This document shows, piece by piece, positions 10,433 through 30,196 of a stretch of DNA of 35,412 bases. The notes beneath the pieces are model-generated. The model ran no database searches and was not told where the DNA came from. It saw only the letters and a program-made list of their open reading frames with translations. Positions within the stretch are counted from its first letter, which is position 1; each line of letters opens with the position of its first letter. The translations under genes and the position numbers were made by a program. The stretch is from a virus, in the IMG/VR virus record IMGVR_UViG_3300020198_000045, positions 1 to 35,412 of that record; one strand, written 5' to 3'.

Positions 10433-10434
10433 AA

Positions 10435-17925: not shown

Positions 17926-18182
17926 ATAACCTCAATGTTAACTTCCTTGTCTTTAAGAAATTGTATCACATCTTCTTCTGAAAGAAGACGTATCCACCTC
18001 GCGTCATGTTTTTTAAAATAGAATGTTCGGCATTTTTCTGGAATATCCTGATCATCAGGCATAATAATAAACTGGCCATCAATTTTAACATGCAGAATAT
18101 CTCCGGATGCGCCGAGGATTTTGAGATTTTGATGGCAATTACAGCCAACAAAGGATCCTTGTATAATTTGAATTAATGCCAT
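17922..18182 (-). CDS. Hypothetical protein (86 aa)
   Basis: Has a CNCHQN motif near the N-terminus and then a beta-rich body ending in a helix (SEEDVIQFLKDKEVNIEVM). No family recognised. It starts 4 nt after the HAD gene without its own RBS, so coupled translation is likely. Confidence 0.6.
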   Translation of the reverse strand: MALIQIIQGSFVGCNCHQNLKILGASGDILHVKIDGQFIIMPDDQDIPEKCRTFYFKKHDARWIRLLSEEDVIQFLKDKEVNIEVM

Positions 18183-18186
18183 TTAA

Positions 18187-18510
18187 TTAATAACACACTC
18201 TTTTTCCAGTATTTTTTTCGACTCGCACCGCTTTATCATCCCACAATTCAATCATTGACATGGTTTTAACATTTGTTACTGGCAACTCCTGGCCTATATG
18301 TTTTAGACACCACTCTTGGATAATTCTTACTGCAAATTCTCTATTTCCATCATCGAGCCTCGCCGTAAAAACTTTAACTTCAATTCCACTTGAAATCCAA
18401 TCTTTAACTCTTTCTACCATAAGAGGAATTGGTTCACCAGTATGATGAATTCCCCTCCAATAATCATACATTGCCAATGTTCCATCAAAATCAACTCCAA
18501 TCCAACCCAT
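18187..18510 (-). CDS. Small HAD-family phosphatase
   Basis: 107 residues. Motif I VDFDGTL (nucleophile Asp7, general acid Asp9), motif II-like VFTAR near residue 50, and WDDKAV at the C-terminus as motif IV. No large cap domain, as in small phage HAD hydrolases that act on nucleotides or polynucleotide ends. It is the first gene of the left-arm transcript, with GAGGAGG before the ATG. Confidence 0.75.
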   Translation of the reverse strand: MGWIGVDFDGTLAMYDYWRGIHHTGEPIPLMVERVKDWISSGIEVKVFTARLDDGNREFAVRIIQEWCLKHIGQELPVTNVKTMSMIELWDDKAVRVEKNTGKRVCY

Positions 18511-18583
18511 ACATCCTCCTCATATCTGCACATTTCCTTTCGAGCATATAGCCCAATTCTAGTTTCACTACAATTTTATAATC

Positions 18584-18674
18584 CAGACTTTTTTTAAAAA
18601 AATTGTTTTCCAAAAAAAGACCTAGGGATCAGACTTTTTTTTAAAAAAATTGTTTTCCAAAAAAAGACCTAGGG
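18584..18674. repeat. Two tandem copies of a 45-bp A/T-tract repeat
   Basis: Each unit is CAGAC, T7 or T8, A7, TTGTTTTCC, A7 and GACCTAGGGA. The copies differ by one T. Phased A/T tracts usually bend DNA. The repeat sits directly upstream of the left-arm operon. Confidence 0.85.
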
Positions 18675-19060
18675 AGCTCATAAAGAATACCTAAATTGCC
18701 TATGCGAAAACATCGTCCCTACACTTCTCCATGTTCTCCATATCAGAAAGTTGATGACTCAATCTCCAAGCCGTGGCCCAGAGTCTAAGTCTAAAATCAA
18801 AGCGAATTCGACGATAAAAAATCCTCAGATAATCCTGGGCTGCCAATACTGCAATAATAACACTAGCAGGTAGTAGAACGGATATAGACTATAAGGTACA
18901 ATAGAATCCATATAGATATATATATTATAACATATAAAACTTATTTAGGGCCTATTACAATTCTACTGGTGGTCCTGCCCTCCTAACAGCCTCTTTTCAC
19001 TATATAAGGTATTAAAGAGCTGATTATACTCCATTAATGGGATTTAGTATAGTTAATTCC

Positions 19061-19079
19061 TGTCCAGACATACTGGACA
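19061..19079. promoter_or_regulatory. Inverted repeat, possible operator
   Basis: TGTCCAG-ACATA-CTGGACA, a 7-bp perfect dyad in the divergent region. It could be a repressor site or a small hairpin; no gene context decides. Confidence 0.4.
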
Positions 19080-19191
19080 CTAACAATTAGGCTAAATTTT
19101 AGAGCCGCCGGAAACAAATTCAAAATCGGATATTATTAGAAATAGAACTCGGACAAAGAAACTAAAAGAGGATAATGGATAACGTTAATAC

Positions 19192-19269
19192 TGGGAATTT
19201 TCATTCCCATGTATCATGTGACCGGTAGAATTTTCATCATCCTCCTCCCAGAGGGAGGAGGAGTTCTAC
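19192..19269. terminator. Twin hairpins at the left border of the array
   Basis: First hairpin 19192-19209 (TGGGAAT stem, loop TTTC, so the GAAA-type loop of the other copies is on the minus strand here). The second, 19225-19269, has the GTAGAA/TTCTAC base and a CCTCCTCCC arm. It borders the first cassette promoter. Confidence 0.6.
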
Positions 19270-19298
19270 TACCATACTTTTGCTACTTTGTAAACTGT

Positions 19299-19356
19299 TT
19301 TACTTTCCTTATAAACGTGATATAATGGTTTTACCAATAAATCGGTTATTGGTAAA
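19299..19356 (+). promoter_or_regulatory. Cassette promoter 1 with leader hairpin
   Basis: TTTACT at 19299, 16-bp spacer (others 17), TATAAT at 19321. The leader hairpin 19330-19356 has an 11-bp stem (TTTACCAATAA) and loop ATCGG. Confidence 0.8.
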
Positions 19357-19389
19357 CGGGCCACACGAAAAGCCCACAGGAGGTTCTCG

Positions 19390-19647
19390 ATGGTCTCCAT
19401 TATGTCTACTCGCTGCTACACTTGTTCAAAATCTCGTAGCCACATGTCTGCTGATCCAAGGGTCGTGTATTGTGGACAGTGTCGACAGCACTCTCTACAA
19501 AGGCTTTATCTGCAATGGAATGCTCTCAAGTCTATTGGTGCAAGCCCCGAAATTCTCAAAGACTGGCGTATTATGATCAAAGACCTTGAAACATGGTGTG
19601 ATGCTTTAGGCTACGGAGTACCACAATTTTCAATCAATAAAAGTTAG
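19390..19647 (+). CDS. Cassette 1: zinc-ribbon protein (85 aa)
   Basis: AGGAGG lies 6 nt before ATG 19390. CYTC and CGQC about 16 residues apart form a zinc ribbon in the first third. The rest is helical (LYLQWNALKSIGASPEILKD) and may be an interaction domain. It has its own promoter upstream and twin hairpins 9 nt after the stop. Family unknown. Confidence 0.7.
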   Translation: MVSIMSTRCYTCSKSRSHMSADPRVVYCGQCRQHSLQRLYLQWNALKSIGASPEILKDWRIMIKDLETWCDALGYGVPQFSINKS

Positions 19648-19655
19648 TTAGAGTG

Positions 19656-19739
19656 CACGGGGGGAATGAAAATTCCCCCCGTGTCTCAACCCGTAGAACC
19701 CGAACAGAACCCCCTCCCGAAGGGAGGGGGAAGTTCTAC
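19656..19739 (+). terminator. Twin hairpins after cassette 1
   Basis: H1 19656-19683: 12-bp stem from CACG6AAT closed by GAAA. H2 19693-19739: GTAGAAC/GTTCTAC base, internal loop, then a CCCCCTCCC/GGGAGGGGG arm with a GAA loop. No U tract follows, so termination may rely on the strong stems or on processing. Confidence 0.65.
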
Positions 19740-19768
19740 TATCATACTTTCTCTCTTTTGTACACTGG

Positions 19769-19826
19769 TTTACTTTTCCATTCCGACCATATATAATGAT
19801 TTCACCAATAAAAAACGAGTATTGGT
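19769..19826 (+). promoter_or_regulatory. Cassette promoter 2 with leader hairpin
   Basis: TTTACT-17-TATAAT (19769, 19792). Leader hairpin ACCAATA / loop AAAAACGAG / TATTGGT at 19804-19826. Confidence 0.85.
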
Positions 19827-19862
19827 AAACCGAGCTACCTGTCTTACGAAGGAGTTAGGTCT

Positions 19863-20138
19863 ATGACATTACGACATATCGTCACGAAGTTTCGTGGAAC
19901 GTGCTCAGGCATCTGTAAGAATAAGATCTCTGTTGGAGAGTATGTCATATGGGATCCTGACTCTAGAGAGATCTGGCATTCAGGATGCAGAACAGCTGGT
20001 GTTAATCCCGCTCTCGATCAGGAATCTGCAGAGGGAGTTCGGGAAGTCGAGCGCTACCAAGCAAATCTAAAGTTTTTCGGTGAAGAGTATGCAGCAGCCG
20101 AGGAAAGAATATGGGAGGGGCGTCTCGGATACGACTAG
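19863..20138 (+). CDS. Cassette 2: treble-clef-like zinc finger protein (91 aa)
   Basis: Start ATG 19863 after AAGGAG. C-x3-C at CSGIC, then ISVGEYVIWDPDSREIWHSGC, fits a small C..C...G...W-x-H-x2-C zinc finger known in many phage and actinobacterial miniproteins. The same W-x-H-x2-C ending recurs in cassette 3. The C-terminal half is an acidic helix (FFGEEYAAAEERIWEGRL). Likely DNA- or protein-binding; target unknown. Confidence 0.7.
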   Translation: MTLRHIVTKFRGTCSGICKNKISVGEYVIWDPDSREIWHSGCRTAGVNPALDQESAEGVREVERYQANLKFFGEEYAAAEERIWEGRLGYD

Positions 20139-20155
20139 TCCAAAATGATGAAATC

Positions 20156-20237
20156 CACGGGGGAATGAAAATTCCCCCGTGTCTCAACCCGTAGAACCTG
20201 AACAGAACCCCCTCCCGAAGGGAGGGGGAAGTTCTAC
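20156..20237 (+). terminator. Twin hairpins after cassette 2
   Basis: H1 20156-20181 has only five G paired with five C (six in cassette 1), so run length changes on both arms together. H2 20191-20237. Confidence 0.65.
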
Positions 20238-20266
20238 TATCACACTTTCTCTCCTTTGTACACTTG

Positions 20267-20325
20267 TTTACTTTTCCATTCCGACCATATATAATGGTCT
20301 TACCAATAAAAAACGAGTATTGGTA
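20267..20325 (+). promoter_or_regulatory. Cassette promoter 3 with leader hairpin
   Basis: TTTACT-17-TATAAT (20267, 20290). Hairpin TACCAATA / AAAAACGAG / TATTGGTA at 20301-20325. Confidence 0.85.
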
Positions 20326-20352
20326 AACCAATCCATTAAGGAAAGGAAACAA

Positions 20353-20508
20353 ATGACTGATACTGTCATATGCATCGTATGTGGCCAACCGCCCATCATT
20401 GGACGCTTCATGATCAAGATTGATAGGGGTTGGATTCATGTGGATACCTGCATCGCTAGCTGGCCTCAATACCCCTTCATAATGCGTTCTTCAGGCTGGA
20501 AGCCGTAA
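20353..20508 (+). CDS. Cassette 3: zinc finger miniprotein (51 aa)
   Basis: Start ATG 20353 follows AAGGAAAGG; the longer in-frame opening overlaps promoter and leader and is rejected. CIVC, then IIGRFMIKIDRGWIHVDTC, gives C-x2-C...W-x-H-x2-C. It is a paralogue of the 37-aa protein at 23435 and of the 31-aa minus-strand protein at 34452 (shared C-x2-C-x5-I-x-G-x-FMIK...GW-x-H). Confidence 0.7.
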   Translation: MTDTVICIVCGQPPIIGRFMIKIDRGWIHVDTCIASWPQYPFIMRSSGWKP

Positions 20509-20520
20509 CACACAAACAAG

Positions 20521-20611
20521 TCGGGAGGGTAGGAACAAACCTATCCTCCCGAAGTGGAAGAAGGGGTAGAACCCGAACAGAACCCCCTCCCGAAGGGAGG
20601 GGAAATTCTAC
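20521..20611 (+). terminator. Twin hairpins after cassette 3 (variant H1)
   Basis: H1 20521-20552 is a different sequence (TCGGGAGGGTAGG arm, loop AACAAA, one G-U pair). H2 20566-20611 keeps the GTAGAA/TTCTAC base. Confidence 0.65.
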
Positions 20612-20640
20612 TACCACACTTTTGCTCTCCTGTACACTGG

Positions 20641-20700
20641 TTTACTTCTCTTTCTAAACCGTATATAATGATCTCATCAATAAAAACGGTTATTGGTAAA
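20641..20700 (+). promoter_or_regulatory. Cassette promoter 4 with leader hairpin
   Basis: TTTACT-17-TATAAT (20641, 20664). The leader left arm is ATCAATAA against TTATTGGT, a C-to-T change kept as a U-G wobble. Confidence 0.85.
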
Positions 20701-20724
20701 ACAACCACAAGGAAAGGAATTGTC

Positions 20725-21069
20725 ATGAAGCAATCGTATTACAACCTTTGGGAAAACACTTGGAAGGAGTGGGACCCCGACAAGGGTGGTACATTCATTG
20801 CAGTTCATTCCGTATCAAATGCTTCGAGCAGACCACAGCACGATTTACAGAAAATAGTTGCAGAACTCGCGTGGGAGGTCTCTCGAGATCCCAGCTGGAT
20901 GAACGCGAAGATCTATAAGGTACCATGCATCTTCTCTCGTCATGACTCTTGGATCGAGCAAACGTACGAACTGCCACTCGATCTTGTGGAAGAGGCGAAA
21001 AGTATGTCATGGGAATGGCAGAAGGAAGTTTTTGAACGTAGCCACGGTTTAGTTGGGTTCTGGAGGTAG
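20725..21069 (+). CDS. Cassette 4: Trp-rich hypothetical protein (114 aa)
   Basis: Start ATG 20725 after GGAAAGGA. The sequence is rich in Trp (MKQSYYNLWENTWKEWDPDK) with a central helical part (LQKIVAELAWEVSRD) and a SWEWQKEVFERSHGLVGFWR ending. No family recognised. A deleted relic of this same cassette lies at 22019-22145. Confidence 0.65.
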   Translation: MKQSYYNLWENTWKEWDPDKGGTFIAVHSVSNASSRPQHDLQKIVAELAWEVSRDPSWMNAKIYKVPCIFSRHDSWIEQTYELPLDLVEEAKSMSWEWQKEVFERSHGLVGFWR

Positions 21070-21087
21070 GCGCTTCATAGGACATCA

Positions 21088-21171
21088 CATGGGGGGAATG
21101 AAAATTCCCCCCGTGTTCAACCCCGTAGAACCCGAACAGAACCCCCTCCCGAAGGGAGGGGGAAGTTCTAC
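21088..21171 (+). terminator. Twin hairpins after cassette 4
   Basis: H1 21088-21115 begins CATG and ends CGTG (U-G pair). H2 21125-21171 standard. Confidence 0.65.
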
Positions 21172-21200
21172 TATCACACTTTTGTCCCTTTGTACACTGG

Positions 21201-21258
21201 TTTACTTTTCCATTCCGACCATATATAATGGTCCTACCAATAAAAATGGTTATTGGAA
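21201..21258 (+). promoter_or_regulatory. Cassette promoter 5 with leader hairpin
   Basis: TTTACT-17-TATAAT (21201, 21224). Leader loop AAATGG. The right arm runs straight into GGAAGGGGG, which serves as RBS. Confidence 0.8.
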
Positions 21259-21271
21259 GGGGGTACAGACG

Positions 21272-21475
21272 ATGGATTTGGGAATGCACAGGCACGGATG
21301 GGCCAGAAACATCCAAGAGAGCCACCCCAAGTGGGAGTGGAAAAACTACACGGTAACCGTTTCGTGGGAGTGCCGCTGTGGAGCGCGCGTCATCCAGGCC
21401 CAAACCTTCCGCGAGCCGAGTAAAGAGTCAGAGCAGCCCGAAGTCGAAGTGATTTACGCAGACGAGACGGCCTGA
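21272..21475 (+). CDS. Cassette 5a: HRH/WECxCG protein (67 aa)
   Basis: MDLGMHRHGWARNIQES, then YTVTVSWECRCGARV, with an acidic tail. His and Cys pairs suggest a metal site. It is a clear paralogue of the protein at 27897-28214 (HRH-x-W...YTV-x-V-x-WEC-x-CGA). GC content is higher than in neighbouring cassettes, hinting at separate acquisition. Confidence 0.65.
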   Translation: MDLGMHRHGWARNIQESHPKWEWKNYTVTVSWECRCGARVIQAQTFREPSKESEQPEVEVIYADETA

Positions 21476-21515
21476 AGAACGAGCTCGCGGCGAGCGAGCC
21501 ATAGAGAGTAGCGGG

Positions 21516-21537
21516 GCGTCTTGACCGACGCCCCAGG
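21516..21537 (+). promoter_or_regulatory. Intercistronic hairpin
   Basis: GGGGCGTC-TTGACC-GACGCCCC, 8-bp stem, directly before AGGAGG. The segment TGACCGACGCCC plus AGGAGG recurs before the paralogous gene at 27897. Confidence 0.5.
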
Positions 21538-21581
21538 AGGGCGAAGTGATCACCGACACAAGAATGGAAGGAGTTAAGCCC

Positions 21582-21746
21582 ATGCGGAAGTCTAGCGGCA
21601 CTGTTCATTGCCTTCGTTGTAGAGTCCTGTACGATCTGGTCTCGTATCCCGCAGGCACTACGACCACCGCCTGTTACAAGTGCAGGAATCGCCAGGATAT
21701 CAAGGGGACATCGATCCTGAAGTTTCCTGATGGTCGGATTGGATAG
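21582..21746 (+). CDS. Cassette 5b: zinc-ribbon miniprotein (54 aa)
   Basis: ATG 21582 is chosen because AAGGAG lies 8 nt before it; upstream in-frame starts lack an RBS. CLRC and CYKC about 20 residues apart form a zinc ribbon, with a basic C-terminus. It is GC-rich like 5a and probably co-transcribed with it. Confidence 0.6.
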   Translation: MRKSSGTVHCLRCRVLYDLVSYPAGTTTTACYKCRNRQDIKGTSILKFPDGRIG

Positions 21747-21753
21747 CCGACAT

Positions 21754-21780
21754 CTCACCAATAAAAACGTTTATTGACAC
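21754..21780 (+). repeat. Orphan leader hairpin without promoter
   Basis: TCACCAATAAAAACG then TTTATTGACA: a degraded copy of the cassette leader, lacking -35/-10 boxes and twin hairpins upstream. It probably marks an old cassette fusion between 5b and the next gene. Confidence 0.55.
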
Positions 21781-21808
21781 AACAACAGCAAGGAAAGGAG
21801 GAATGATC

Positions 21809-22018
21809 ATGAAGCTAGAAATAAATATAGACAATGACCAGATTAAGGTCCTTGTTGATTGCGCAGTAGCAATTGATGCAATTGCATTGGCATTCGCAGA
21901 TCTAGGTATCAAAGCTCCAGAAGAAATTGAGGCTATGAGAGCGACATCTAAGGAGCTGAGACGACTACATCTCGTGCACTACGTGTGGGCGGCTCTTAGG
22001 AATCCCGGCGTGGTCTAA
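21809..22018 (+). CDS. Cassette 5c: small acidic helical protein (69 aa)
   Basis: ATG 21809 is preferred over 21803 because AAGGAGG needs 7 nt of spacing. Starts MKLEINIDNDQIKVLVD. Helical, ending VHYVWAALRNPGVV. That ending resembles the IWKAL-x-(N/D)P segment of the 22372 and 24297 proteins. Its stop codon lies inside the relic leader that follows. Confidence 0.55.
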   Translation: MKLEINIDNDQIKVLVDCAVAIDAIALAFADLGIKAPEEIEAMRATSKELRRLHLVHYVWAALRNPGVV

Positions 22019-22110
22019 ACGGTTATTGGTAAAACAACCACAAGGAAAGGAAGGGAGTTTTTGAACGTAGCCACGGTTTAGTTGGGTTCTGGCGGTAGGC
22101 GCTTCATAGG
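22019..22110 (+). pseudogene. Deletion scar of cassette 4
   Basis: The right half of a leader hairpin and the RBS (matching 20687-20719) are joined directly to the last 13 or so codons of the cassette 4 gene and its 3' flank (matching 21029-21087). About 300 bp of coding sequence is missing. The junction falls at an AAGGAA/GGAAG stretch present in both parents. No ORF remains. Confidence 0.8.
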
Positions 22111-22116
22111 ACATCA

Positions 22117-22198
22117 CATGGTGGGAATGAAAATTTCCCCCATGTTCAACCCGTAGAACCCGAACAGAACCCCCTCCCGAAGGGAGGGGGGGTTCTAC
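22117..22198 (+). terminator. Twin hairpins of the scar cassette
   Basis: H1 22117-22144 is decayed (CATGGTGGG against CCCCCATG, one mismatch). H2 22153-22198 is intact. Confidence 0.6.
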
Positions 22199-22237
22199 TG
22201 TTCTACTACCACACTTTTGCTCCGTTGTACACCCCTA

Positions 22238-22335
22238 TTTACGAACGTAATTTTTTAATATATAATTAATTCGTTAATTAAATTAATTAATTAATTAATT
22301 TAATTAATTTATTCGAATAAACGGTATTCGAATAA
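22238..22335 (+). promoter_or_regulatory. Divergent cassette promoter 6, AT-rich leader and leader hairpin with a new stem
   Basis: TTTACG-17-TATAAT (22238, 22261). The leader contains an unusual TTAATTAA-rich tract (22262-22310) and then hairpin 22309-22335 with an 11-bp stem TTATTCGAATA/TATTCGAATAA and loop AACGG. The stem is unrelated to other cassettes but the loop and position match. Confidence 0.75.
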
Positions 22336-22340
22336 AAATA

Positions 22341-22358
22341 TTAGGGGGTGACCCCTAA
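22341..22358 (+). promoter_or_regulatory. Second leader hairpin beside the RBS
   Basis: TTAGGGG-GTGA-CCCCTAA: 7-bp stem closed by a GNRA tetraloop, ending 2-3 nt before AAGGAG. It could tune translation of the next gene. Confidence 0.5.
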
Positions 22359-22371
22359 AAGGAGTACGGCC

Positions 22372-22641
22372 ATGCAACCTGAACTCTTTAAGGCCTTGGA
22401 TGCAGCCATATGGCTTGCAGCTACAAAGCTCAATCGACAGGACGTCATTGAGTGGCTCCAAGATCTCCAGATGAAGGAAGACAATGACTTCGCCGTTATG
22501 AACGGCAGACCACATGAGCACACCTTTCATCTGCAGAAGGATCTCGGTCTTATCTGGAAAGCTCTCATGAACCCACAGATGGTAATCTGTGATGGAACAG
22601 AGACATGCCCAGTAGGTGACTTCCACCTGATCGAATCCTAA
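22372..22641 (+). CDS. Cassette 6: helical protein of the IWKAL family (89 aa)
   Basis: ATG 22372 after AAAAGGAG. Helices at LFKALDAAIWLAATKLNRQD and VIEWLQDLQM, then LIWKALMNPQMVICDGTETC. It is a paralogue of the 83-aa protein at 24297 (IWKALRDPSLTVCNG). Function unknown; the conserved C-x4-C and final His may bind metal. Confidence 0.65.
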   Translation: MQPELFKALDAAIWLAATKLNRQDVIEWLQDLQMKEDNDFAVMNGRPHEHTFHLQKDLGLIWKALMNPQMVICDGTETCPVGDFHLIES

Positions 22642-22647
22642 TCGATC

Positions 22648-22773
22648 GCACGGGGGGGACTCCATCCCCCCCGTGCCCCCTCCCCGTAGAACTTCTCTTC
22701 TTACTCTCTTCTTATTCTCTTCTTATTCTCTTCTTACTCTTACCCCCCTCCCGAAGGGAGGGGGGGGTTCTAC
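22648..22773 (+). terminator. Twin hairpins after cassette 6, expanded H2
   Basis: H1 22648-22676 has seven G / seven C and loop ACTCCAT. H2 22686-22773 carries an about 48-nt pyrimidine tandem repeat (unit TCTCTTCTTAT) inside its left arm before the usual CCCCTCCC stem. Confidence 0.6.
22693..22740. repeat. Pyrimidine tandem repeat
   Basis: Four copies of an 11-12-bp TCTCTTCTTA(C/T) unit within H2. Single copies occur after H2 at 27416-27428 and 28319-28332, so this is a local expansion. Confidence 0.7.
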
Positions 22774-22810
22774 TGTTCTACTACCACACTTTCTCTCCTT
22801 TGTACACTGG

Positions 22811-22869
22811 TTTACTTCTCCATTCCAACCGTATATAATGGTCTTACCAATAAAAACGAGTATTGGTAA
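22811..22869 (+). promoter_or_regulatory. Cassette promoter 7 with leader hairpin
   Basis: TTTACT-17-TATAAT (22811, 22834). Leader TACCAATA / AAAACGAG / TATTGGTA. Confidence 0.85.
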
Positions 22870-22891
22870 AACGACCCCTAAGGAGACAAGT

Positions 22892-23218
22892 ATGAAGAAC
22901 CGGCTAGACACAGCGACAGAGATCAAATGGCTTGGGGAAGCGAAACTGCTTATAATCGACCTCTCCCATCGCAACGATGGACAGATCATGAGCCTGATCA
23001 GGCACTGCGACATCATGGGTACCCAACGTGAGTACTCTGGCCTCCCATCCAGCGACGTTCGATTCTTCCGAGAGTTGGCCATGAAGCTCCGCATGATGAT
23101 CGGGGCCGAGGATTACCCAGAGTATCCCCTGGCCACCGACAACCCCACCAAATTCACCCAGAAGTGGAAGGACCGATGGGGAACTAAGTACCCAATCAAT
23201 CTCGAAGAGGCACAGTAG
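22892..23218 (+). CDS. Cassette 7: hypothetical protein (108 aa)
   Basis: ATG 22892 after AAGGAG; upstream frame extension crosses the promoter and is rejected. Predominantly helical (TEIKWLGEAKLLIIDLSHRN; FFRELAMKLRMMIGAED) with a Pro/Trp-rich end. No recognised family. Confidence 0.65.
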   Translation: MKNRLDTATEIKWLGEAKLLIIDLSHRNDGQIMSLIRHCDIMGTQREYSGLPSSDVRFFRELAMKLRMMIGAEDYPEYPLATDNPTKFTQKWKDRWGTKYPINLEEAQ

Positions 23219-23225
23219 GCCTCCA

Positions 23226-23309
23226 CACGGGGGGAATGAAAATTCCCCCCGTGTCTCAACCCGTAGAACCTGAACAGAACCCCCTCCCGAAGGGAGGGGG
23301 GGGTTCTAC
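23226..23309 (+). terminator. Twin hairpins after cassette 7
   Basis: H1 23226-23253 and H2 23263-23309. The segment is nearly identical to that after cassette 1. Confidence 0.65.
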
Positions 23310-23346
23310 TGTTCTACTACCACACTTTTGTTCCTTTGTAAACTGG

Positions 23347-23409
23347 TTTACTTCTCCCCTCAAACCATATATAATGGTCTTACCAATAAAAAACGGTTAT
23401 TGGTAAAAC
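23347..23409 (+). promoter_or_regulatory. Cassette promoter 8 with leader hairpin
   Basis: TTTACT-17-TATAAT (23347, 23370). The -35 sits in GTAAAC-TG-GTTTAC (23338-23351). Leader loop AAAACGG. Confidence 0.85.
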
Positions 23410-23434
23410 GACCCCCTCAGAAAGGGAAACCGAT

Positions 23435-23548
23435 ATGGTTTGCGTAAAGTGCAATCGCCCCTACATCATGGGGCACTTCATGATTAAGACCGCCGAGGGT
23501 TGGAAGCATCTGGCGTGGTCAGTGCTTGGTGGTGGTTGCCCACGTTAG
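23435..23548 (+). CDS. Cassette 8a: zinc finger miniprotein (37 aa)
   Basis: MVCVKCNRPYIMGHFMIK, then GWKH and a final GGGCPR, after GAAAGGGAAACCGAT. It is almost identical to the 31-aa minus-strand protein at 34452-34547, from which it differs mainly by a six-residue insertion between GWKH and GGC. C-x2-C plus H and C form a compact zinc site. Confidence 0.7.
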   Translation: MVCVKCNRPYIMGHFMIKTAEGWKHLAWSVLGGGCPR

Positions 23549-23558
23549 CTCAAATTAG

Positions 23559-23576
23559 TTGAGGATTAATCCTCAA
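23559..23576. promoter_or_regulatory. Perfect 18-bp palindrome before an RBS
   Basis: TTGAGGATTAATCCTCAA immediately followed by GGAG. The same palindrome recurs at 23800-23817. Operator or translation-control hairpin. Confidence 0.55.
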
Positions 23577-23588
23577 GGAGCGTGAATC

Positions 23589-23786
23589 ATGGCACGGGTC
23601 GAGGTTGACCAGTGCGTGAGCTGTGGTCGCAAGCGTGGCGAGCGTCACGTTGCGACGATGGCCATGCCGGATATTGAGGAATTGTGGGACTCGGTGGTTC
23701 CCGCCACGGATGGTTGCGAAGTGGAACCCGACGGTGTGTGTGAGCATGGCCACAATTCTTGGCTGAAAGTGTTAGGCGTTATGTAA
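23589..23786 (+). CDS. Cassette 8b: small zinc-binding protein (65 aa)
   Basis: ATG 23589 with AAGGAG 8 nt upstream. CVSC near the N-terminus and later Cys residues with CEHGH suggest metal binding. GC-rich. It sits between two copies of the 18-bp palindrome. No known family. Confidence 0.6.
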   Translation: MARVEVDQCVSCGRKRGERHVATMAMPDIEELWDSVVPATDGCEVEPDGVCEHGHNSWLKVLGVM

Positions 23787-23799
23787 GGCGGCGAAGTAG

Positions 23800-23817
23800 T
23801 TGAGGATTAATCCTCAA
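23800..23817. promoter_or_regulatory. Second copy of the 18-bp palindrome
   Basis: Identical TTGAGGATTAATCCTCAA, overlapping the AAAGGAG of the next gene. A shortened relative (TGAGGATTAATCCTTA) occurs at the end of the 130-aa gene near 33972. Confidence 0.55.
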
Positions 23818-23829
23818 AGGAGATGTGTT

Positions 23830-24078
23830 ATGCCACGTCGCAAGCGCAACATGTGGGCCAGGTTTACGCAAGCTGTAACCGACTTCTGGTTCAAGGTCAA
23901 GTTTACCCGCGTCACGTTCCGTGTGTACCTGAGGGAAGACGACTACCTGGACCACAAGTACGAACGCGGCGTCGCCCGGCGCGCTCGCTACTACGCCCGG
24001 CGTGCCGAAGCATATCGACGCTCCGTGTCCGAGCAGGACATGGCGGAGCGAGCGTCGGAAGTGGCAGAGCAGCAGTGA
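23830..24078 (+). CDS. Cassette 8c: Arg-rich basic protein (82 aa)
   Basis: ATG 23830 follows AAAGGAG. MPRRKRNMWARFTQAVTDFW start, a beta-like middle and an Arg/Ala helix (YERGVARRARYYARRAEAYR). GC-rich and very basic, likely nucleic-acid or membrane associated. A long overlapping frame (23823-24134) is a shadow. Confidence 0.55.
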   Translation: MPRRKRNMWARFTQAVTDFWFKVKFTRVTFRVYLREDDYLDHKYERGVARRARYYARRAEAYRRSVSEQDMAERASEVAEQQ

Positions 24079-24086
24079 ACACAGAG

Positions 24087-24170
24087 CACGGGGGGAATGA
24101 AAATTCCCCCCGTGTCTCAACCCGTAGAACCTGAACAGAACCCCCTCCCGAAGGGAGGGGGAAGTTCTAC
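24087..24170 (+). terminator. Twin hairpins after cassette 8
   Basis: H1 24087-24114, H2 24124-24170, standard sequence. Confidence 0.65.
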
Positions 24171-24207
24171 TGTTCTACTATCACACTTTCTCTCCTTTGT
24201 AAACCGG

Positions 24208-24267
24208 TTTACTTTTCCCTTCCGACCATATATAATGGTCCTACCAATAAAAAACGGTTATTGGTAA
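24208..24267 (+). promoter_or_regulatory. Cassette promoter 9 with leader hairpin
   Basis: TTTACT-17-TATAAT (24208, 24231). The -35 lies in the perfect palindrome GTAAACCGGTTTAC (24199-24212). Leader loop AAAACGG. Confidence 0.85.
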
Positions 24268-24296
24268 ATCAACCCCCTCAGAAAGGGAAACCGATT

Positions 24297-24548
24297 ATGA
24301 AGAACGGGTTTTTAGAGGTATTTTATTCTGGCCTAGAGTCTATGGCGGAGGAGCTCAAGCGTAATGATCTCCTCGATTGGATCTACGAAATCAAGATGAT
24401 GACTGACGACGGCCTGAAAGATAAACACTTCACTAATCCAACGGAGGAAATAGACAAAATTTGGAAAGCTCTCAGGGATCCCAGCTTGACAGTCTGCAAT
24501 GGATCATCATGCGGCGGTAGTTGGCACCTGGTAAACTGGCTTTCCTAG
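24297..24548 (+). CDS. Cassette 9: helical protein of the IWKAL family (83 aa)
   Basis: ATG 24297 (MKNGFLEVFYSGLESMAEEL). IDKIWKALRDPSLTVCNGSS aligns with LGLIWKALMNPQMVICDGTE of cassette 6. It shares leader and first codons with cassette 10, so 5' ends have been exchanged or duplicated. Confidence 0.65.
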   Translation: MKNGFLEVFYSGLESMAEELKRNDLLDWIYEIKMMTDDGLKDKHFTNPTEEIDKIWKALRDPSLTVCNGSSCGGSWHLVNWLS

Positions 24549-24555
24549 ATCCTCA

Positions 24556-24628
24556 CACGGGGGGGAATGAAAATTCCCCCCGTGACATAATCCGTAGAAC
24601 TTCCCATCCCATGGGAAGTTCTACGGAT
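24556..24628 (+). terminator. Twin hairpins after cassette 9, new H2 arm
   Basis: H1 24556-24584. H2 24590-24628 has an about 17-bp perfect stem (ATCCGTAGAACTTCCCAT) and a 3-nt loop. The GTAGAAC base is kept but the arm is different from the CCCTCCC type. Confidence 0.7.
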
Positions 24629-24665
24629 CTTCATTATACCACACTTTCTCTCCTTTGTACACCTG

Positions 24666-24724
24666 TTTATTTTTCCCTTCTGACCGTATATAATGATTTC
24701 ACCAATAAAAACGGTTATTGGTAA
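24666..24724 (+). promoter_or_regulatory. Cassette promoter 10 with leader hairpin
   Basis: TTTATT-17-TATAAT (24666, 24689). Leader ACCAATAA / AAACGG / TTATTGGT. Confidence 0.8.
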
Positions 24725-24753
24725 ATCACCCTCATCAGAAAGGGAAACCGATT

Positions 24754-25044
24754 ATGAAGAACGGGTCTAATGTTGATGATCAGATTAAAATGATATATTT
24801 AACAATGAATAGCATCGATGCCATCGTCAACTACGTATGGAAGAACGAAACGAACGAAGATTCCTACATGAAGGACCTTGGCCAGAAAATCGGGATAGCT
24901 CTAAAGGTCTGGAATAACTCTCTGGAGAAGCCACACGATCTTGGGTGGGTGCTCAAGAAGGCCAAGGACTCGATAGTAATGAGAGATCAGATAATCCCAG
25001 CAATGAACATAGAGTGTGGTTTCCCGGCCGACTACAGGCCTTAA
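24754..25044 (+). CDS. Cassette 10: hypothetical protein (96 aa)
   Basis: ATG 24754 (MKNGSNVDDQIKMIYLTMNS). Helical, with IALKVWNNSLEKPHD that loosely recalls the IWKAL motif, ending CGFPADYRP. Function unknown. Confidence 0.6.
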   Translation: MKNGSNVDDQIKMIYLTMNSIDAIVNYVWKNETNEDSYMKDLGQKIGIALKVWNNSLEKPHDLGWVLKKAKDSIVMRDQIIPAMNIECGFPADYRP

Positions 25045-25051
25045 TTCACCG

Positions 25052-25124
25052 CACGGGGGGGGAATGAAAATTCCCCCCCGTGACATAATCCGTAGAACTT
25101 CCCATCCCATGGGAAGTTCTAGGA
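25052..25124 (+). terminator. Twin hairpins after cassette 10
   Basis: H1 25052-25082 has eight G against seven C. H2 25089-25124 lacks the CG after TTCTA, a small deletion compared with cassette 9. Confidence 0.65.
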
Positions 25125-25162
25125 TCTTCATTATACCATACTTTTGCTCCTTTGTACACTGG

Positions 25163-25221
25163 TTTACTTTTCCTCCTAAACCGTATATAATGGTCCTACC
25201 AATAAAAACGATTATTGGTAA
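25163..25221 (+). promoter_or_regulatory. Cassette promoter 11 with leader hairpin
   Basis: TTTACT-17-TATAAT (25163, 25186). Leader loop AAACGA. Confidence 0.85.
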
Positions 25222-25237
25222 ACCAAGGAGTACGTCT

Positions 25238-25654
25238 ATGGGTAACTATCCCCCCGGTTCTTTTTACGATCCAAGGGCTCCATGGAATCAAGAAGATCAT
25301 CACCCCAGATGCCTGGCCAGCGATAACGCACCAGAATTCATTCCCAATCCTGATGACTTGCTTGACTCTGTCAATAACGTTATATACGATTGGAGACGGC
25401 AATCCTATCTCAAGCAGGAAATCCCTGGTAACAACGTGAACGACTTAGTAAGTCGGTCTTTGCTGATAAAACTTGAGCAAGTCGCAAAGCCACAGTGTAC
25501 TTGCGACGAGAATGCAAGAGAAGACTACTACAGTCAAGACGATTACGACCCCGACCCATTCCGTGGCAGAGACGCAGAAGCCGATTCCGATGTACTCCGC
25601 AGTGCTGGTCTCGGAACTGACGAAGACTATGGGCTTTACCAAGAAGTAGTATAA
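25238..25654 (+). CDS. Cassette 11: acidic protein (138 aa)
   Basis: ATG 25238 after AAGGAG. Starts MGNYPPGSFYDPRAPWNQED, has a CTCDENARED segment and a very acidic Asp/Tyr-rich C-terminus (YYSQDDYDPDPFRGRD). The acidity could suit a DNA mimic or inhibitor, which is speculation. No family recognised. Confidence 0.6.
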   Translation: MGNYPPGSFYDPRAPWNQEDHHPRCLASDNAPEFIPNPDDLLDSVNNVIYDWRRQSYLKQEIPGNNVNDLVSRSLLIKLEQVAKPQCTCDENAREDYYSQDDYDPDPFRGRDAEADSDVLRSAGLGTDEDYGLYQEVV

Positions 25655-25666
25655 AGGAGTGCTTCA

Positions 25667-25738
25667 CACGAGGGGGATAAAAATCCCCCTCGTGACATAA
25701 TCCGTAGAACTTCCCATCCCATGGGAAGTTCTACGGAT
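25667..25738 (+). terminator. Twin hairpins after cassette 11 (AGGGGG variant)
   Basis: H1 25667-25694: CACGAGGGGGAT with complementary CCCCCTCGTG, so the G-to-A change is matched by C-to-T. H2 25700-25738 long TTCCCAT arm. Confidence 0.7.
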
Positions 25739-25775
25739 CTTCATTATATCATACTTTTACTCTCCTGTACACTGG

Positions 25776-25833
25776 TTTACTTCTCCCCTTTGACAGTATA
25801 TAATGGTCTTACCAATAAAAACGGTTATTGGTA
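25776..25833 (+). promoter_or_regulatory. Cassette promoter 12 with leader hairpin
   Basis: TTTACT-17-TATAAT (25776, 25799). Leader ACCAATAA / AAACGG / TTATTGGT. Confidence 0.85.
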
Positions 25834-25855
25834 AAACAAATAACGGAGGTCCGAC

Positions 25856-26065
25856 ATGATAGGCTACACGCCTAAGTACCCGGAAATCACGGTCCAACTA
25901 GTAGGCGAAGATGGCAACGCGTTCTCTATTCTTGGTCGGGTAACTCGAGCCTTGCGACGTGGTGGTGCAACTATAGACGACATCAATGAATTCCAACGCG
26001 AGGCAACTAGCGGTGACTACGATAACCTTCTCCGAACCGTCTGTAAATATGTAGACGCTAGCTAA
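25856..26065 (+). CDS. Cassette 12a: conserved small phage protein (69 aa)
   Basis: ATG 25856 after ACGGAGG. VQLVGEDGNAFSILGRVTRA, then INEFQREATSGDYDNLLRTV, match a widespread small hypothetical family of phages and actinobacteria (QL-x-GEDGNAF ... EATSGDYD-x-LL). Function unknown, but the strong conservation elsewhere supports a real gene. Confidence 0.8.
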   Translation: MIGYTPKYPEITVQLVGEDGNAFSILGRVTRALRRGGATIDDINEFQREATSGDYDNLLRTVCKYVDAS

Positions 26066-26087
26066 AACAAGACGAGGTTGAACCAAA

Positions 26088-26115
26088 TCCTCCCCTCTCG
26101 AAAGAGAGGGGAGGA
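26088..26115 (+). promoter_or_regulatory. Intercistronic hairpin with GAAA loop
   Basis: 12-bp perfect stem TCCTCCCCTCTC closed by GAAA, before AAAGGAAA and the next ATG. It resembles the array hairpins but lies inside a polycistronic unit. Confidence 0.6.
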
Positions 26116-26132
26116 GGAAAAAGGAAACAACA

Positions 26133-26327
26133 ATGTCACAAGTAAAAACCATCGAAGCTTCAGAACTCAGATTACCTCCTGGGATCTGGCCAAAAAAATT
26201 GCTTGCTGGGCGTTATGGCATAGTTTTCCGCACAAATATAGTTCGTAACTCCTTCACTAATGAGATTGAGCATGTAGACTACTTTGTAGATAGTACCGGA
26301 GACACTATCCGAGTATTCAATGACTAG
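26133..26327 (+). CDS. Cassette 12b: hypothetical protein (64 aa)
   Basis: Beta-rich small protein (MSQVKTIEASELRLPPGIWP; GIVFRTNIVRNSF; YFVDSTGDTIRVFND). AAAGGAAACAACA precedes ATG. Possibly an SH3-like fold; no family assigned. Confidence 0.6.
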   Translation: MSQVKTIEASELRLPPGIWPKKLLAGRYGIVFRTNIVRNSFTNEIEHVDYFVDSTGDTIRVFND

Positions 26328-26342
26328 CCACAATTTAGAATA

Positions 26343-26358
26343 AGCGGTCTCCACCGCT
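26343..26358 (+). promoter_or_regulatory. Small hairpin abutting an RBS
   Basis: AGCGGT-CTCC-ACCGCT directly before GGAGG of the next gene. Confidence 0.4.
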
Positions 26359-26369
26359 GGAGGTTTCTG

Positions 26370-26756
26370 ATGGCAAATAAGGAAAGAATTCAAAAGTGGG
26401 TCGATGCTTTGCTATCTGGAAAGTTTTCTCAAGGAAAGAATGCACTTAGAACAAAAGAAGGAAATAAAGATCTATATTGTTGCTTGGGCGTTTTATGTGA
26501 AGTTGCTATAGAAGATGGAGTTCCCCTAGAAATAGAAGATAATCTCCATAATTCTGAGCTTTATCCTAAAGGTTGGAATATTAGTTATGACGCCGAATAT
26601 ATTTTCCCTCCTGATCTAGTATACGAATGGATTGAAATAGAACGGTTTCCCGAGGATGATGATGACAATGATTTTATGGAGTATGCTAGACTGAACGATA
26701 ATGGACGTTCATTTTCATACATAGCAGAAAGAATTAGGGAAAAGTACTTGGCTTAG
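26370..26756 (+). CDS. Cassette 12c: conserved phage protein, IQKWV family (128 aa)
   Basis: IQKWVDALLSGKFSQGKNAL, then LYCCLGVLCEVAIEDGVPLE, then a LNDNGRSFSYIAERIREKY ending. It is a paralogue of the 130-aa minus-strand protein at 33978-34370. The family (W-x-x-ALRSG...YCCLGVLCE...ND-x-G-x-SF-x-x-IA) is frequent in phages with no known activity. The Cys pair is invariant in both copies. AT-rich compared with 5a/8c. Confidence 0.75.
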   Translation: MANKERIQKWVDALLSGKFSQGKNALRTKEGNKDLYCCLGVLCEVAIEDGVPLEIEDNLHNSELYPKGWNISYDAEYIFPPDLVYEWIEIERFPEDDDDNDFMEYARLNDNGRSFSYIAERIREKYLA

Positions 26757-26765
26757 AAGTAAATT

Positions 26766-26839
26766 CACGAGGGGGATTTTTATCCCCCTCGTGACATAAT
26801 CCGTAGAACTGAACCCTCCAGAAGAGGGTTCAGTTCTAC
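26766..26839 (+). terminator. Twin hairpins after cassette 12
   Basis: H1 26766-26793, CACGAGGGGGAT stem with TTTT loop. H2 26803-26839 has a third arm type, GTAGAACTGAACCCTC, 16 bp. Confidence 0.7.
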
Positions 26840-26869
26840 TGCCATACTTTTTCTCCTTTGTAAACCACC

Positions 26870-26929
26870 TTTACATATGGATCCCAATATGATATAATGA
26901 TCCTACCAATAAAAACGGTTATTGGTAAA
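26870..26929 (+). promoter_or_regulatory. Cassette promoter 13 with leader hairpin
   Basis: TTTACA-17-TATAAT (26870, 26893). The spacer differs from other copies; the leader hairpin is identical to cassette 12. Confidence 0.8.
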
Positions 26930-26947
26930 ACAAATAACGGAGTAACA

Positions 26948-27322
26948 ATGAGTACTAAAGAAGAGAAACTCACAGCCATTGATCGACTAGAAAACGATAT
27001 TGGTAGCCACAGAATTATCAAAACTGAAGAGGCAAACAAAATCGGAGAACCATTCGGCCTTACCTTTGGAGGAACAAGTTTCAAGCATGACCCAAATAAT
27101 CCAAAGGGTCCACTCTGGGACTTTGAAGATGGTGTTAGTTCATTCACATTAGCATCTAGAATTGCAGATGTGACTGCTGGTATGGAAAGAGAGTCGTATA
27201 TGGGGCGGGGATTCCAATTCCGATCAGATTGCAAGGCCGCTAGATTAGCAATTATGAACGAAGGAATTAAGCCCTCTGAAAACGACACTGACGGTCCTGG
27301 TAAATTCTCCACTGTGTCATAA
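26948..27322 (+). CDS. Cassette 13: hypothetical protein (124 aa)
   Basis: ATG 26948 after CGGAG. MSTKEEKLTAIDRLENDIGS start, a Gly-rich middle (FGLTFGGTSFKHDPNNPKGP) and helices at SSFTLASRIADVTAGMERES. No known family; cytoplasmic soluble protein by composition. Confidence 0.6.
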   Translation: MSTKEEKLTAIDRLENDIGSHRIIKTEEANKIGEPFGLTFGGTSFKHDPNNPKGPLWDFEDGVSSFTLASRIADVTAGMERESYMGRGFQFRSDCKAARLAIMNEGIKPSENDTDGPGKFSTVS

Positions 27323-27334
27323 GTGAGTGCTTCA

Positions 27335-27415
27335 CACGAGGGGGATTTTAAAAATCCCCCTCGTGGCATAATCCGTAGAACTGAACCCTCTTCTGGAGGG
27401 TTCAGTTCTACGGAT
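27335..27415 (+). terminator. Twin hairpins after cassette 13
   Basis: H1 27335-27365 has a longer AT top. H2 27371-27415 has the CTGAACCCTC arm with loop TTCTG. Confidence 0.65.
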
Positions 27416-27469
27416 CCTCTTCTTACTCATTTCTTTATTATACCATACTTTTGTGCCCCTGTAAACTGG

Positions 27470-27528
27470 TTTACTTCTCCCCTCAGACCATATATAATAA
27501 TCCTACCAATAAAAACGGTTATTGGTAC
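27470..27528 (+). promoter_or_regulatory. Cassette promoter 14 with leader hairpin
   Basis: TTTACT-17-TATAAT (27470, 27493). The -35 lies in GTAAAC-TG-GTTTAC. After the leader hairpin the usual AAAC...GGAG spacer is missing. Confidence 0.8.
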
Positions 27529-27554
27529 CTGACTGGCAACGGTGGGGGTTCAAA

Positions 27555-27803
27555 GTGAAGGTTTCCGAAGCGAAAAAATGCTCCGTTGATATTGTGAGGC
27601 GCGATCCATACATAAAACCACCTAACATACATCGATATCCATGCCCGACTCCGGTCGTGTATCTCGGCATGTGCCAACGTCACGCGATCAAAGCCCTTGA
27701 AGAATCGCTAAGGGGGATGTATAAGCGCCCTTCTCCGGAAAACAAGGAAGCCATTGAGAAATTGCGGCAGACGATTGAGCGGCTTCGCCAGGATCCCAAA
27801 TAA
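27555..27803 (+). CDS. Cassette 14a: hypothetical protein (82 aa)
   Basis: GTG 27555 after GGTGGGGG is favoured; an in-frame TTG at 27522 lies inside the leader hairpin and would give 93 aa. Cys and His residues (KCSVDI; YPCPTPVVYLGMCQRHAIKA) suggest a zinc site. A basic helical tail (RQTIERLRQDPK) follows. GC-rich. Confidence 0.5.
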   Translation: MKVSEAKKCSVDIVRRDPYIKPPNIHRYPCPTPVVYLGMCQRHAIKALEESLRGMYKRPSPENKEAIEKLRQTIERLRQDPK

Positions 27804-27896
27804 TGGCCCTGAATGTACCTGCCAGTTCTGCATCGGCTCGACCAAAGAGGGCAATGATTAGAGGGACGCCTGACCGACGCCCAGGAGGTAATGGAA

Positions 27897-28214
27897 ATGG
27901 CAACGCACAGGCACGCATGGTCAAGACAGATCGAACAGAACAACATCGACAATGGCGGCTTGTGGCCCGACTACACCGTCTTGGTCTATTGGGAGTGCTA
28001 CTGTGGAGCGCACGCCACCCACACGCACACCTTCAGCCCGCCGGTCGAGTCGGTGCAGCTCGAAGCCGACTCCGAACAGGAACCCGACGACGCTTGCATC
28101 TGTGCCACGTGCAGGACGCACGTCAACGACGACGGTACTCGCCCCGAAGAAACGTCGGTTATATGGCCCACTTGGTGGGAGCTAAAGTTGCCATCAGACG
28201 CGCCGGGGTCCTAA
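27897..28214 (+). CDS. Cassette 14b: HRH/WECxCG protein (105 aa)
   Basis: ATG 27897 has AGGAGG 8 nt upstream (27891 is the alternative). MATHRHAWSRQIEQNN, then YTVLVYWECYCGAHATHTHT, is a paralogue of the 21272 protein, with an added C-terminal CICATCRTH zinc-ribbon half. GC-rich; the long frame 27803-28282 is its shadow. Confidence 0.65.
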   Translation: MATHRHAWSRQIEQNNIDNGGLWPDYTVLVYWECYCGAHATHTHTFSPPVESVQLEADSEQEPDDACICATCRTHVNDDGTRPEETSVIWPTWWELKLPSDAPGS

Positions 28215-28246
28215 CGCGTACACCCGTAAACAGCGAAGCGACGAAT

Positions 28247-28320
28247 GAGAGGGGGATTTTAAAAATCCCCCTCGTGGCATAATCCGTAGAACTTCCCATC
28301 CCATGGGAAGTTCTACGGAT
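28247..28320 (+). terminator. Twin hairpins after cassette 14
   Basis: H1 about 28247-28275 (GAGGGGGATTTT stem; its outer base pairs differ). H2 28282-28320 TTCCCAT arm. Confidence 0.65.
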
Positions 28321-28374
28321 TCTCTTCTTACTCATTTCTTCATTATACCATACTTTCTCTCCTTTGTAAACTGG

Positions 28375-28434
28375 TTTACTTCTCCTCTTCAACTATATAT
28401 AATGGCCTTATCAATAAAAACGGTTATTGATAAA
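28375..28434 (+). promoter_or_regulatory. Cassette promoter 15 with compensated leader hairpin
   Basis: TTTACT-17-TATAAT (28375, 28398). The leader is TATCAATAA / AAACGG / TTATTGATA: both arms changed together relative to TACCAATAA/TTATTGGTA. Confidence 0.85.
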
Positions 28435-28448
28435 CCACGGAGTACAAC

Positions 28449-28583
28449 ATGAATGGTAATTGGGTCAAGACAACTAGTGTTTGCAAGTTGTGCAAAAAGC
28501 CATCATGGTTTTATTATCGGTATAAGGAACGGTGGGGATTTTGTGGTTCATGCATGAATAAGCTTCGACGAGGAATTCGCTAA
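28449..28583 (+). CDS. Zinc-ribbon miniprotein (44 aa), first gene of the last plus-strand operon
   Basis: ATG 28449 after ACGGAG. CKLC and CGSC 18 residues apart form a zinc ribbon, with a basic tail (MNKLRRGIR). The following structured intercistronic element starts at its stop codon. Confidence 0.65.
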   Translation: MNGNWVKTTSVCKLCKKPSWFYYRYKERWGFCGSCMNKLRRGIR

Positions 28584-30134: not shown

Positions 30135-30165
30135 TGGTAAACCCTCCTGTTTAGTTAATGAGATT

Positions 30166-30194: not shown

Positions 30195-30196
30195 TC

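Follow-up and report, generated by a model that had tools for sequence, protein, structure and literature searches.

How phages gain and express small accessory genes without disrupting transcription has mostly been argued from a few cultured groups. The question is raised here by IMG/VR record IMGVR_UViG_3300020198_000045, a tailed-virus contig whose entire 35,412 bases were analysed (the window), in which copies of a regulatory block made up of a promoter and several hairpins stand between small plus-strand genes from 19192 to 28583. What do these blocks do, and is the cargo between them exchanged? We consider it likely (probability about 0.68) that the locus is a recombining, moron-like or promoter-early stem-loop (PeSL)-like accessory array of autonomous expression cassettes. 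If so, the process has been caught between viruses whose flanking DNAs are 99.8-99.97% identical, and two interchangeable regulatory formats serve one gene pool.

The repeated block

The first-pass annotation of this DNA had described an array of about 15 plus-strand cassettes, and blocks do recur at each of the places where it put them (Table 1). From left to right a block contains a hairpin past the stop codon of the upstream gene (H1), a hairpin with arms GTAGAAC/GTTCTAC (H2), a pyrimidine-rich stretch, a predicted promoter, a leader hairpin and a ribosome-binding site (RBS). The 15 predicted promoters, all on the plus strand between 19299 and 28375, are of the sigma-70 type with the form TTTAC(T/A/G)/TTTATT...TATAAT, and as claimed earlier 14 of them have a 17 bp spacer, the exception being that at 19299 (16 bp). 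Promoter-like sites number 59 in the 19.0-35.4 kb region, versus 25.0 +/- 5.4 in shuffled sequences. The 77 nt promoter-leader core is present in 13 copies with 71-86% identity to one reference copy, and longer pairs of blocks are 92-93% identical over 171-209 nt; the description "nearly identical" fits such pairs but not the set as a whole, in which mean pairwise identity is ~0.73 for promoter plus leader and ~0.53 for H2. There are ~22 genes for the 15 promoters, and the notion of one promoter block per mini-gene fails for seven of them (21582, 21809, 23589, 23830, 26133, 26370 and 27897), which have no block of their own.

The hairpins can be judged from their patterns of substitution. In the aligned H1 stems 95.4% of the cells are paired, there are 14 double-sided changes (3.6 in shuffles), four pairs have changed on both sides, and the covariation score was matched by 0 of 500 shuffles; this measure shows structural constraint on H1. 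For one complete block the folding z-score is -4.9, and no known RNA family was found above its gathering score. The leader hairpin begins 3-7 nt past the -10 box, at the expected +1, in 15 of 15 array promoters, and the mRNAs should therefore begin with a stem-loop. At the 22238 promoter this position is occupied by an AT-rich hairpin unrelated in sequence to the others, and no such hairpin follows the -10 box in any of ten minus-strand promoters at 30-35 kb. These observations point to the leader being a structure at the mRNA 5' end and not an operator sequence, a reading that is limited by the thin covariation within the common leader; the block 15 leader stem has one compensatory change, C-G to T-A.

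The -35 region had been described as a dyad. The dyad is present, and is best read from its sequence as two overlapping divergent -35 boxes; in five right-hand blocks there is also a minus-strand TATAAT at 17 bp that points towards H2. These divergent promoters (TTTACA/TGTACA-17-TATAAT) are at 24661, 25158, 25771, 27465 and 28370 on the minus strand. A short RNA predicted from each would cross H2 and H1, and in the three left blocks of the five H2 would be at or near the 5' end of that RNA.

H2-type hairpins are not confined to the array. One lies at the convergent end of the plus-strand genes (Table 1), and others with TTCTAC/GTAGAA arms are immediately 5' of the minus-strand promoters at 30815, 32276 and 33218; the element is thus a feature of the contig's entire accessory half. 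In one H2 a pyrimidine microsatellite of the TTCTTACTC type is inserted in the 5' arm (22686-22745).

Replacement of an array segment in a sister contig

Related contigs were compared for cargo and gene order, as the first-pass annotation had proposed, and these are not the same; the outcome that the annotation had named as contradicting it was not seen. The sister contig G001 is colinear with the window at 2,210-18,623 (99.93-99.97% identity) and from 24,769 to the end at 35,412 (99.77%), but it lacks window 18,623-24,769 (6.1 kb) and has 4.74 kb of different sequence instead. The replacement likewise consists of cassettes, in which 12 small genes follow promoterless hairpin blocks (type B). 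By family its cargo order is A B C D D E F B C D G H, including a duplicated B-C-D triplet, and that of the right part of the replaced window segment is D F B (two others) A H. Where homology between the two arrays is clear, the proteins are 54-99% identical; copy number and order differ. About ten cassettes were exchanged together. On the right the break falls within the opening codons of gene 24754, immediately past a block, and on the left in a non-coding 40-nt repeat at 18589-18675, outside the array. A second sister from a different sample, G002, ends at 20,944 and agrees with the window version as far as it goes. Block DNA was matched in other viruses only in sister contigs from Lake Tanganyika.

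Between 24,775 and 35,412 the window and G001 differ in 17 clusters, two of which are exact inversions of a hairpin loop, in an H1 (25066-25069, GAAA to TTTC) and in an H2 (26819-26823, CAGAA to TTCTG). Blocks 13 and 14 of the window have H2 sequences that are reverse complements of each other. Such flips need no dedicated machinery, since template switching at palindromes accounts for them, and they suggest that function does not depend on which way a loop faces.

Two regulatory formats

The G001 gene families are preceded by H1, H2, a third hairpin and an RBS hairpin (AGGGGGTAACCCCTAAGGAG), and no sigma-70 promoters above background were found in the G001 array. In the window, block 6 combines the two formats: its sigma-70 promoter and leader are followed by a second hairpin and a G001-type RBS hairpin, to 22358. 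Each G001 module comes in two types, H1 as GGGGGGAATGAAAATTCCCCCC or CAGGGGGGCTCCTCCCCCCTG, H2 as CCCCCCGAAGGGGGG or TTTACCGAAGGGAAAG, and the third hairpin as GCAGGG or ACCGAG. All four H1 x H2 and all four H2 x H3 combinations are present, and recombination or repeated conversion is therefore needed to explain them (the four-gamete argument). Directly 5' of the RBS hairpin in most type-B cassettes (L092 12271-16560) there is a ATATAGGGGG-type sequence that resembles the start region of a single-subunit (T7-type) RNA polymerase promoter; a PF00940 search for such a polymerase gave no match, but the control search likewise gave none.

Cargo genes

The cargo had been called unrelated. This holds for the majority of the window genes, which have no detectable relative inside the array, but not for three paralogous pairs (20353/23435, 21272/27897 and 22372/24297). 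Members of a single cargo family are preceded by different regulatory blocks, two or three in number, and occur on either strand. Duplication and decay are seen at 22017-22152, the wreck of a duplicated 20725 cassette, where a copy of the leader end and RBS (20684-20719) is joined to a copy of the gene end and H1 (21024-21123) and the body is gone; the junction is an AAGGAA-type microhomology (body lost between short repeats). The ratio of nonsynonymous to synonymous substitution rates (dN/dS) is 0.11-0.30 in five pairs of families D, F, B and H and 0.55 in a further D pair (22372 with G001 gene 15085); families A (1.06) and C (0.69) show no clear constraint. Outside the window, family D was matched only in G001. 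A family F match in an Opitutus metagenome-assembled genome (15 residues in GC-rich DNA) was taken as chance. A Pfam search for cargo function gave a single match, below cut-off, and a structure model of family D (predicted local distance difference test score, pLDDT, 71) gave no fold match.

Interpretation and alternative explanations

We propose that each cassette consists of a sigma-70 promoter, a 5'-terminal mRNA hairpin, an RBS, a small gene and the 3' hairpins H1 and H2. Each promoter would fire early with host RNA polymerase, the 5' hairpin would protect the mRNA, as is established for other bacterial mRNAs, and H1/H2 would most likely end the transcript, by termination, or process it, insulating the next cassette. 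Because each would bring its own start and stop signals, cassettes could be gained, lost, duplicated, strand-switched or replaced as segments with their neighbours undisturbed. The repeated blocks and repeated cargo would supply the homology for exchange, crossing-over between blocks is a plausible means, and recombination within blocks may be the usual route. If this is true, the block is a landmark by which fast-changing accessory genes (for example for anti-defence or takeover) could be found from sequence alone, and a hairpin at the 5' end of each cassette offers a design rule for protecting mRNA that is simple and can be tested.

Several points weigh against this interpretation. All of the compared contigs are metagenome assemblies, and 20,944-24,769 is supported by the window contig alone. 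Neither break of the observed swap is within a block, and the swap moved many cassettes at once; the earlier proposal that recombination between blocks swaps cargo is thus strongly supported as to a platform with exchangeable cargo, but the one observed event did not take that form. The promoterless G001 array means that a promoter per cassette is not essential at this locus. The plus-strand U-tracts of H1 and H2 are poor (tails are only moderately T-rich at 24590, 25700, 27371 and 28281, and H1 has no plus-strand U-tract), which makes termination uncertain. Finally, one observation in its favour is no more than suggestive. Similarity of H1 and H2 tracks position in the array (for H2, r=0.58, p=0.0002), that of the promoter half does not, and the mismatch hints at recombination; it may, however, be lack of signal, as the promoter sub-halves with outliers removed correlate with each other at r=0.18.

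Could the array have arisen by ordinary tandem duplication of gene-plus-promoter units and later divergence of the genes, with little recombination between viruses? The paralogous cargo, the greater similarity of neighbouring H2 elements, G001's duplicated triplet and the decayed duplicate at 22017-22152 speak for it, and in view of the paralogues and the wreck the earlier statement that the array is "the opposite of gene duplication" was too strong. As a full account it is unlikely: most window cargo has no detectable relative in the array, and divergence in place cannot yield a 6.1-kb replacement between flanks that are 99.8-99.97% identical, so the G001 comparison largely refutes it. That the array is real but the difference between the sisters is an assembly chimera caused by its repeats is very unlikely. 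Such an artefact would have to produce, in G001, a coherent cassette array with related cargo and unique-sequence anchors on both sides, and a misjoin would not make related but non-identical copies (for example family D at 94% amino acid identity); G002 also agrees independently with the window version to 20,944. The contigs were nonetheless assembled from short-read metagenomes, the repeats reach ~200 nt, and the remainder of the segment has its single source.

It is also quite improbable that H1 and H2 act as DNA, that is, as single-stranded or cruciform sites of exchange or inversion, like integron attC, through which the cassettes move. Equally doubtful is the related idea that they are the moving parts common to both array types, with rapid inversion or recombination shuffling cassettes independently of promoters and without an integron integrase. 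The GTAGAA/TTCTAC arms of H2 are kept around very different stems, H1 and H2 but not the promoters are common to both arrays, two loops are inverted between near-identical sisters, and H2-type hairpins occur at promoters outside the array. Loop flips can, however, come from template switching, and the known breakpoint is outside any hairpin. A tyrosine recombinase (PF00589) search of the window, G001 and G002, all incomplete contigs, gave no match, and the conserved arms GTTCTAC / GTAGAAC do not match the attC core, having two mismatches to GTTRRRY / RYYYAAC.

Virus and host

For the major capsid protein and the prohead protease the only matches are distant ones (27-36% identity), to haloarchaeal viruses of the HCTV/HVTV type and one archaeal-virus record. 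Relatives of the capsid protein are encoded in ~200 viral-contig stretches, and it is 100% identical in four contigs, from metagenomes 3300020200, 3300020214, 3300020083 and 3300020074, which are Lake Tanganyika samples (PMC8245535). A provirus search for the host found no capsid relative in the genome collection. We take the virus to be, almost certainly, a tailed phage of bacteria, because sigma-70 boxes at 17-bp spacing recur on both strands in unrelated contexts, because the virus encodes a ClpP-family protease (9824-10432, minus strand, close to the structural genes), and because the relative G005 has TTGACA-17-TATAAT promoters and U-tract terminators. An archaeal host with TATATAA as TATA box, an idea that comes from the halovirus-like capsid, was judged less likely on the same three grounds.

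Comparison with known systems

The PeSLs of T4-type phages, reportedly described by Arbiol et al. in 2010 and Comeau et al. in 2014, had been named as the closest precedent. In the excerpted account they are an early promoter plus stem-loop repeated among small variable genes (PMC4503421). On that partial account the working is similar, with a host-type promoter and stem-loop between variable genes (15 blocks here) and shuffling of cargo (the G001 swap here). The present virus, however, is not T4-type (Straboviridae-like) by its capsid and protease matches, and as far as that account goes it also differs in having two hairpins 5' and one 5'-terminal hairpin 3' of the promoter in a dense regular array, and in having a sister array without promoters. 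Morons of lambdoid phages are small accessory genes that arrive with a promoter and a terminator of their own; they are usually single insertions, whereas here 15 consecutive blocks follow one common template. Like an integron array, the present one lines up small genes with a structured repeat after each and varies in gene content and order; it differs in that the window cassettes carry promoters.

In cluster K mycobacteriophages, the extracts at hand describe a start-associated sequence and its extended form (SAS/ESAS), in which a SigA-type promoter (17-18 bp) plus inverted repeat precedes many small genes of differing families, with 7 copies in Adephagia (PMC3203893; PMC11373665). Promoters of this type with an inverted repeat upstream of several small genes are found here as well. 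The SAS motif itself, given in part of one report as GGGATAGGAGCCC at the start codon (PMC3203893), is absent from the array 5' untranslated regions inspected. In the same extracts the inverted repeat is inside the promoter motif, in contrast to the separate 3' and 5' hairpins here, and array-wide replacement is not among the features described (PMC3203893; PMC11373665). Staphylococcus Kayvirus 515A1, with 58 early promoters and 42 terminators, is similar in having many strong 17-bp-spaced host-type promoters for early genes; the excerpts of its description neither place these promoters in repeated blocks with hairpins nor take up cargo exchange as a theme (PMC7698491). Judged by sequence features, what sets the locus apart from these systems is that its array is denser and regular, that it has additional hairpins and that two formats are interchangeable.

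Feature coordinates and further observations

Table 1. Blocks, cargo genes and related features of the window, from left to right (aa, amino acids)
Feature	Position	Strand	Remarks
Segment swapped in sister G001 for 4.74 kb (L092 17004-12264)	18623-24769	+	contig comparison
Block 1: H1-like 19192-19210, H2 19225-19271, promoter 19299-19326 (16-bp spacer), leader 19330-19356	19192-19356	+	leftmost; no plus-strand gene upstream
Cargo, 85 aa, Cys-rich (zinc-ribbon-like)	19390-19647	+	weak Pfam Zn_ribbon_NOB1, E=0.0026, below cut-off
Block 2: H1 19655-19684, H2 19693-19740, promoter 19769-19797, leader 19804-19826	19655-19826	+	
Cargo, 91 aa	19863-20138	+	
Block 3: H1 20156-20181, H2 20191-20238, promoter 20267-20295, leader 20300-20326	20156-20326	+	92% to block 2, 171 nt
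Cargo family B (CxxC), 51 aa	20353-20508	+	paralogue of 23435
Block 4: divergent H1 20521-20552, H2 20566-20612, promoter 20641-20669, leader 20676-20697	20521-20697	+	
Cargo, 114 aa	20725-21069	+	
Block 5: H1 21087-21116, H2 21125-21172, promoter 21201-21229, leader 21237-21256	21087-21256	+	
Cargo, 67 aa	21272-21475	+	paralogue of 27897
Two promoterless cargo genes 21582-21746, 21809-22018; orphan leader-hairpin remnant 21752-21776	21582-22018	+	
Wreck of duplicated cassette 20725	22017-22152	+	repeat families, sequence
Block 6: H1, H2 22153-22200, promoter 22238-22266 (TTTACG, 17 bp), AT-rich 16-bp leader stem 22273-22308	22115-22308	+	
Cargo family D, 89 aa	22372-22641	+	3 copies in G001, 78-94% aa
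Block 7: H1 22648-22676, H2 22686-22780 (pyrimidine-rich insert), promoter 22811-22839, leader 22844-22869	22648-22869	+	
Cargo family F, 108 aa	22892-23218	+	G001 homologue 79% aa, dN/dS 0.22
Block 8: H1 23225-23254, H2 23263-23317, promoter 23347-23375, leader 23380-23406	23225-23406	+	
Cargo family B, 37 aa	23435-23548	+	88% nt copy, minus strand, 34464-34548
Two genes 23589-23786, 23830-24078, common AGGATTAATCCTC leader, no sigma-70 block	23589-24078	+	
Block 9: H1 24086-24115, H2 24124-24178, promoter 24208-24236, leader 24242-24266	24086-24266	+	93% to block 8, 209 nt
Cargo family A, 83 aa	24297-24548	+	G001 homologue 69% aa
Block 10: H1 24556-24584, H2 24590-24628, promoter 24666-24694, leader 24701-24722; minus promoter 24661-24633	24556-24722	+	
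Cargo family H	24754-25044	+	right breakpoint of swap in first codons; near-identical to G001 from ~24769
Block 11: H1 25052-25082 (loop inverted in G001), H2 25088-25125, promoter 25163-25191, leader 25197-25220; minus promoter 25158-25130	25052-25220	+	
Cargo, 138 aa	25238-25654	+	
Block 12: H1 25667-25694, H2 25700-25738, promoter 25776-25804, leader 25809-25834; minus promoter 25771-25743	25667-25834	+	
Cargo: 25856-26065 (phrog_1933), 26133-26327, 26370-26756 (phrog_18067)	25856-26756	+	
Block 13: H1 26765-26794, H2 26803-26839 (loop inverted in G001), promoter 26870-26898, leader 26904-26927	26765-26927	+	
Cargo, 124 aa	26948-27322	+	
Block 14: H1 27335-27365, H2 27371-27415, promoter 27470-27498, leader 27504-27527; minus promoter 27465-27437	27335-27527	+	
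Cargo: 27555-27803 and promoterless 27897-28214 (paralogue of 21272)	27555-28214	+	
Block 15: H1 28249-28273, H2 28281-28321, promoter 28375-28403, leader 28408-28433; minus promoter 28370-28342	28249-28433	+	
Cargo family E-like, 44 aa, two CxxC pairs	28449-28583	+	
H2-type hairpin (GTAGAAC...GTTCTAC)	29767-29805	n/a	convergent end of plus-strand genes

An AAA ATPase gene adjoins one for a DUF2201 metallopeptidase/VWA-like protein at 14531-17265 (minus strand) of the window. Weak Phage_integrase (PF00589) matches are present within open frames of ~1,100 aa in two relatives (G007 66390-66659 and G006 76242-76520). The 17 copies of the motif AAA(A)TTTAGAAAA in an 8-kb small-gene region of G005, an 88-kb relative (L102 4216-11980), are all on a single strand, some directly 5' of TTGACA-17-TATAAT promoters, and the motif may be another modular regulatory element. 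The minus strand of the window has a second set of small genes at 30161-35206, several with their own TTTACA/TGTACA-17-TATAAT promoter, and two of the promoter regions, those at 33883 and 34382, share 97% identity over 63 nt.

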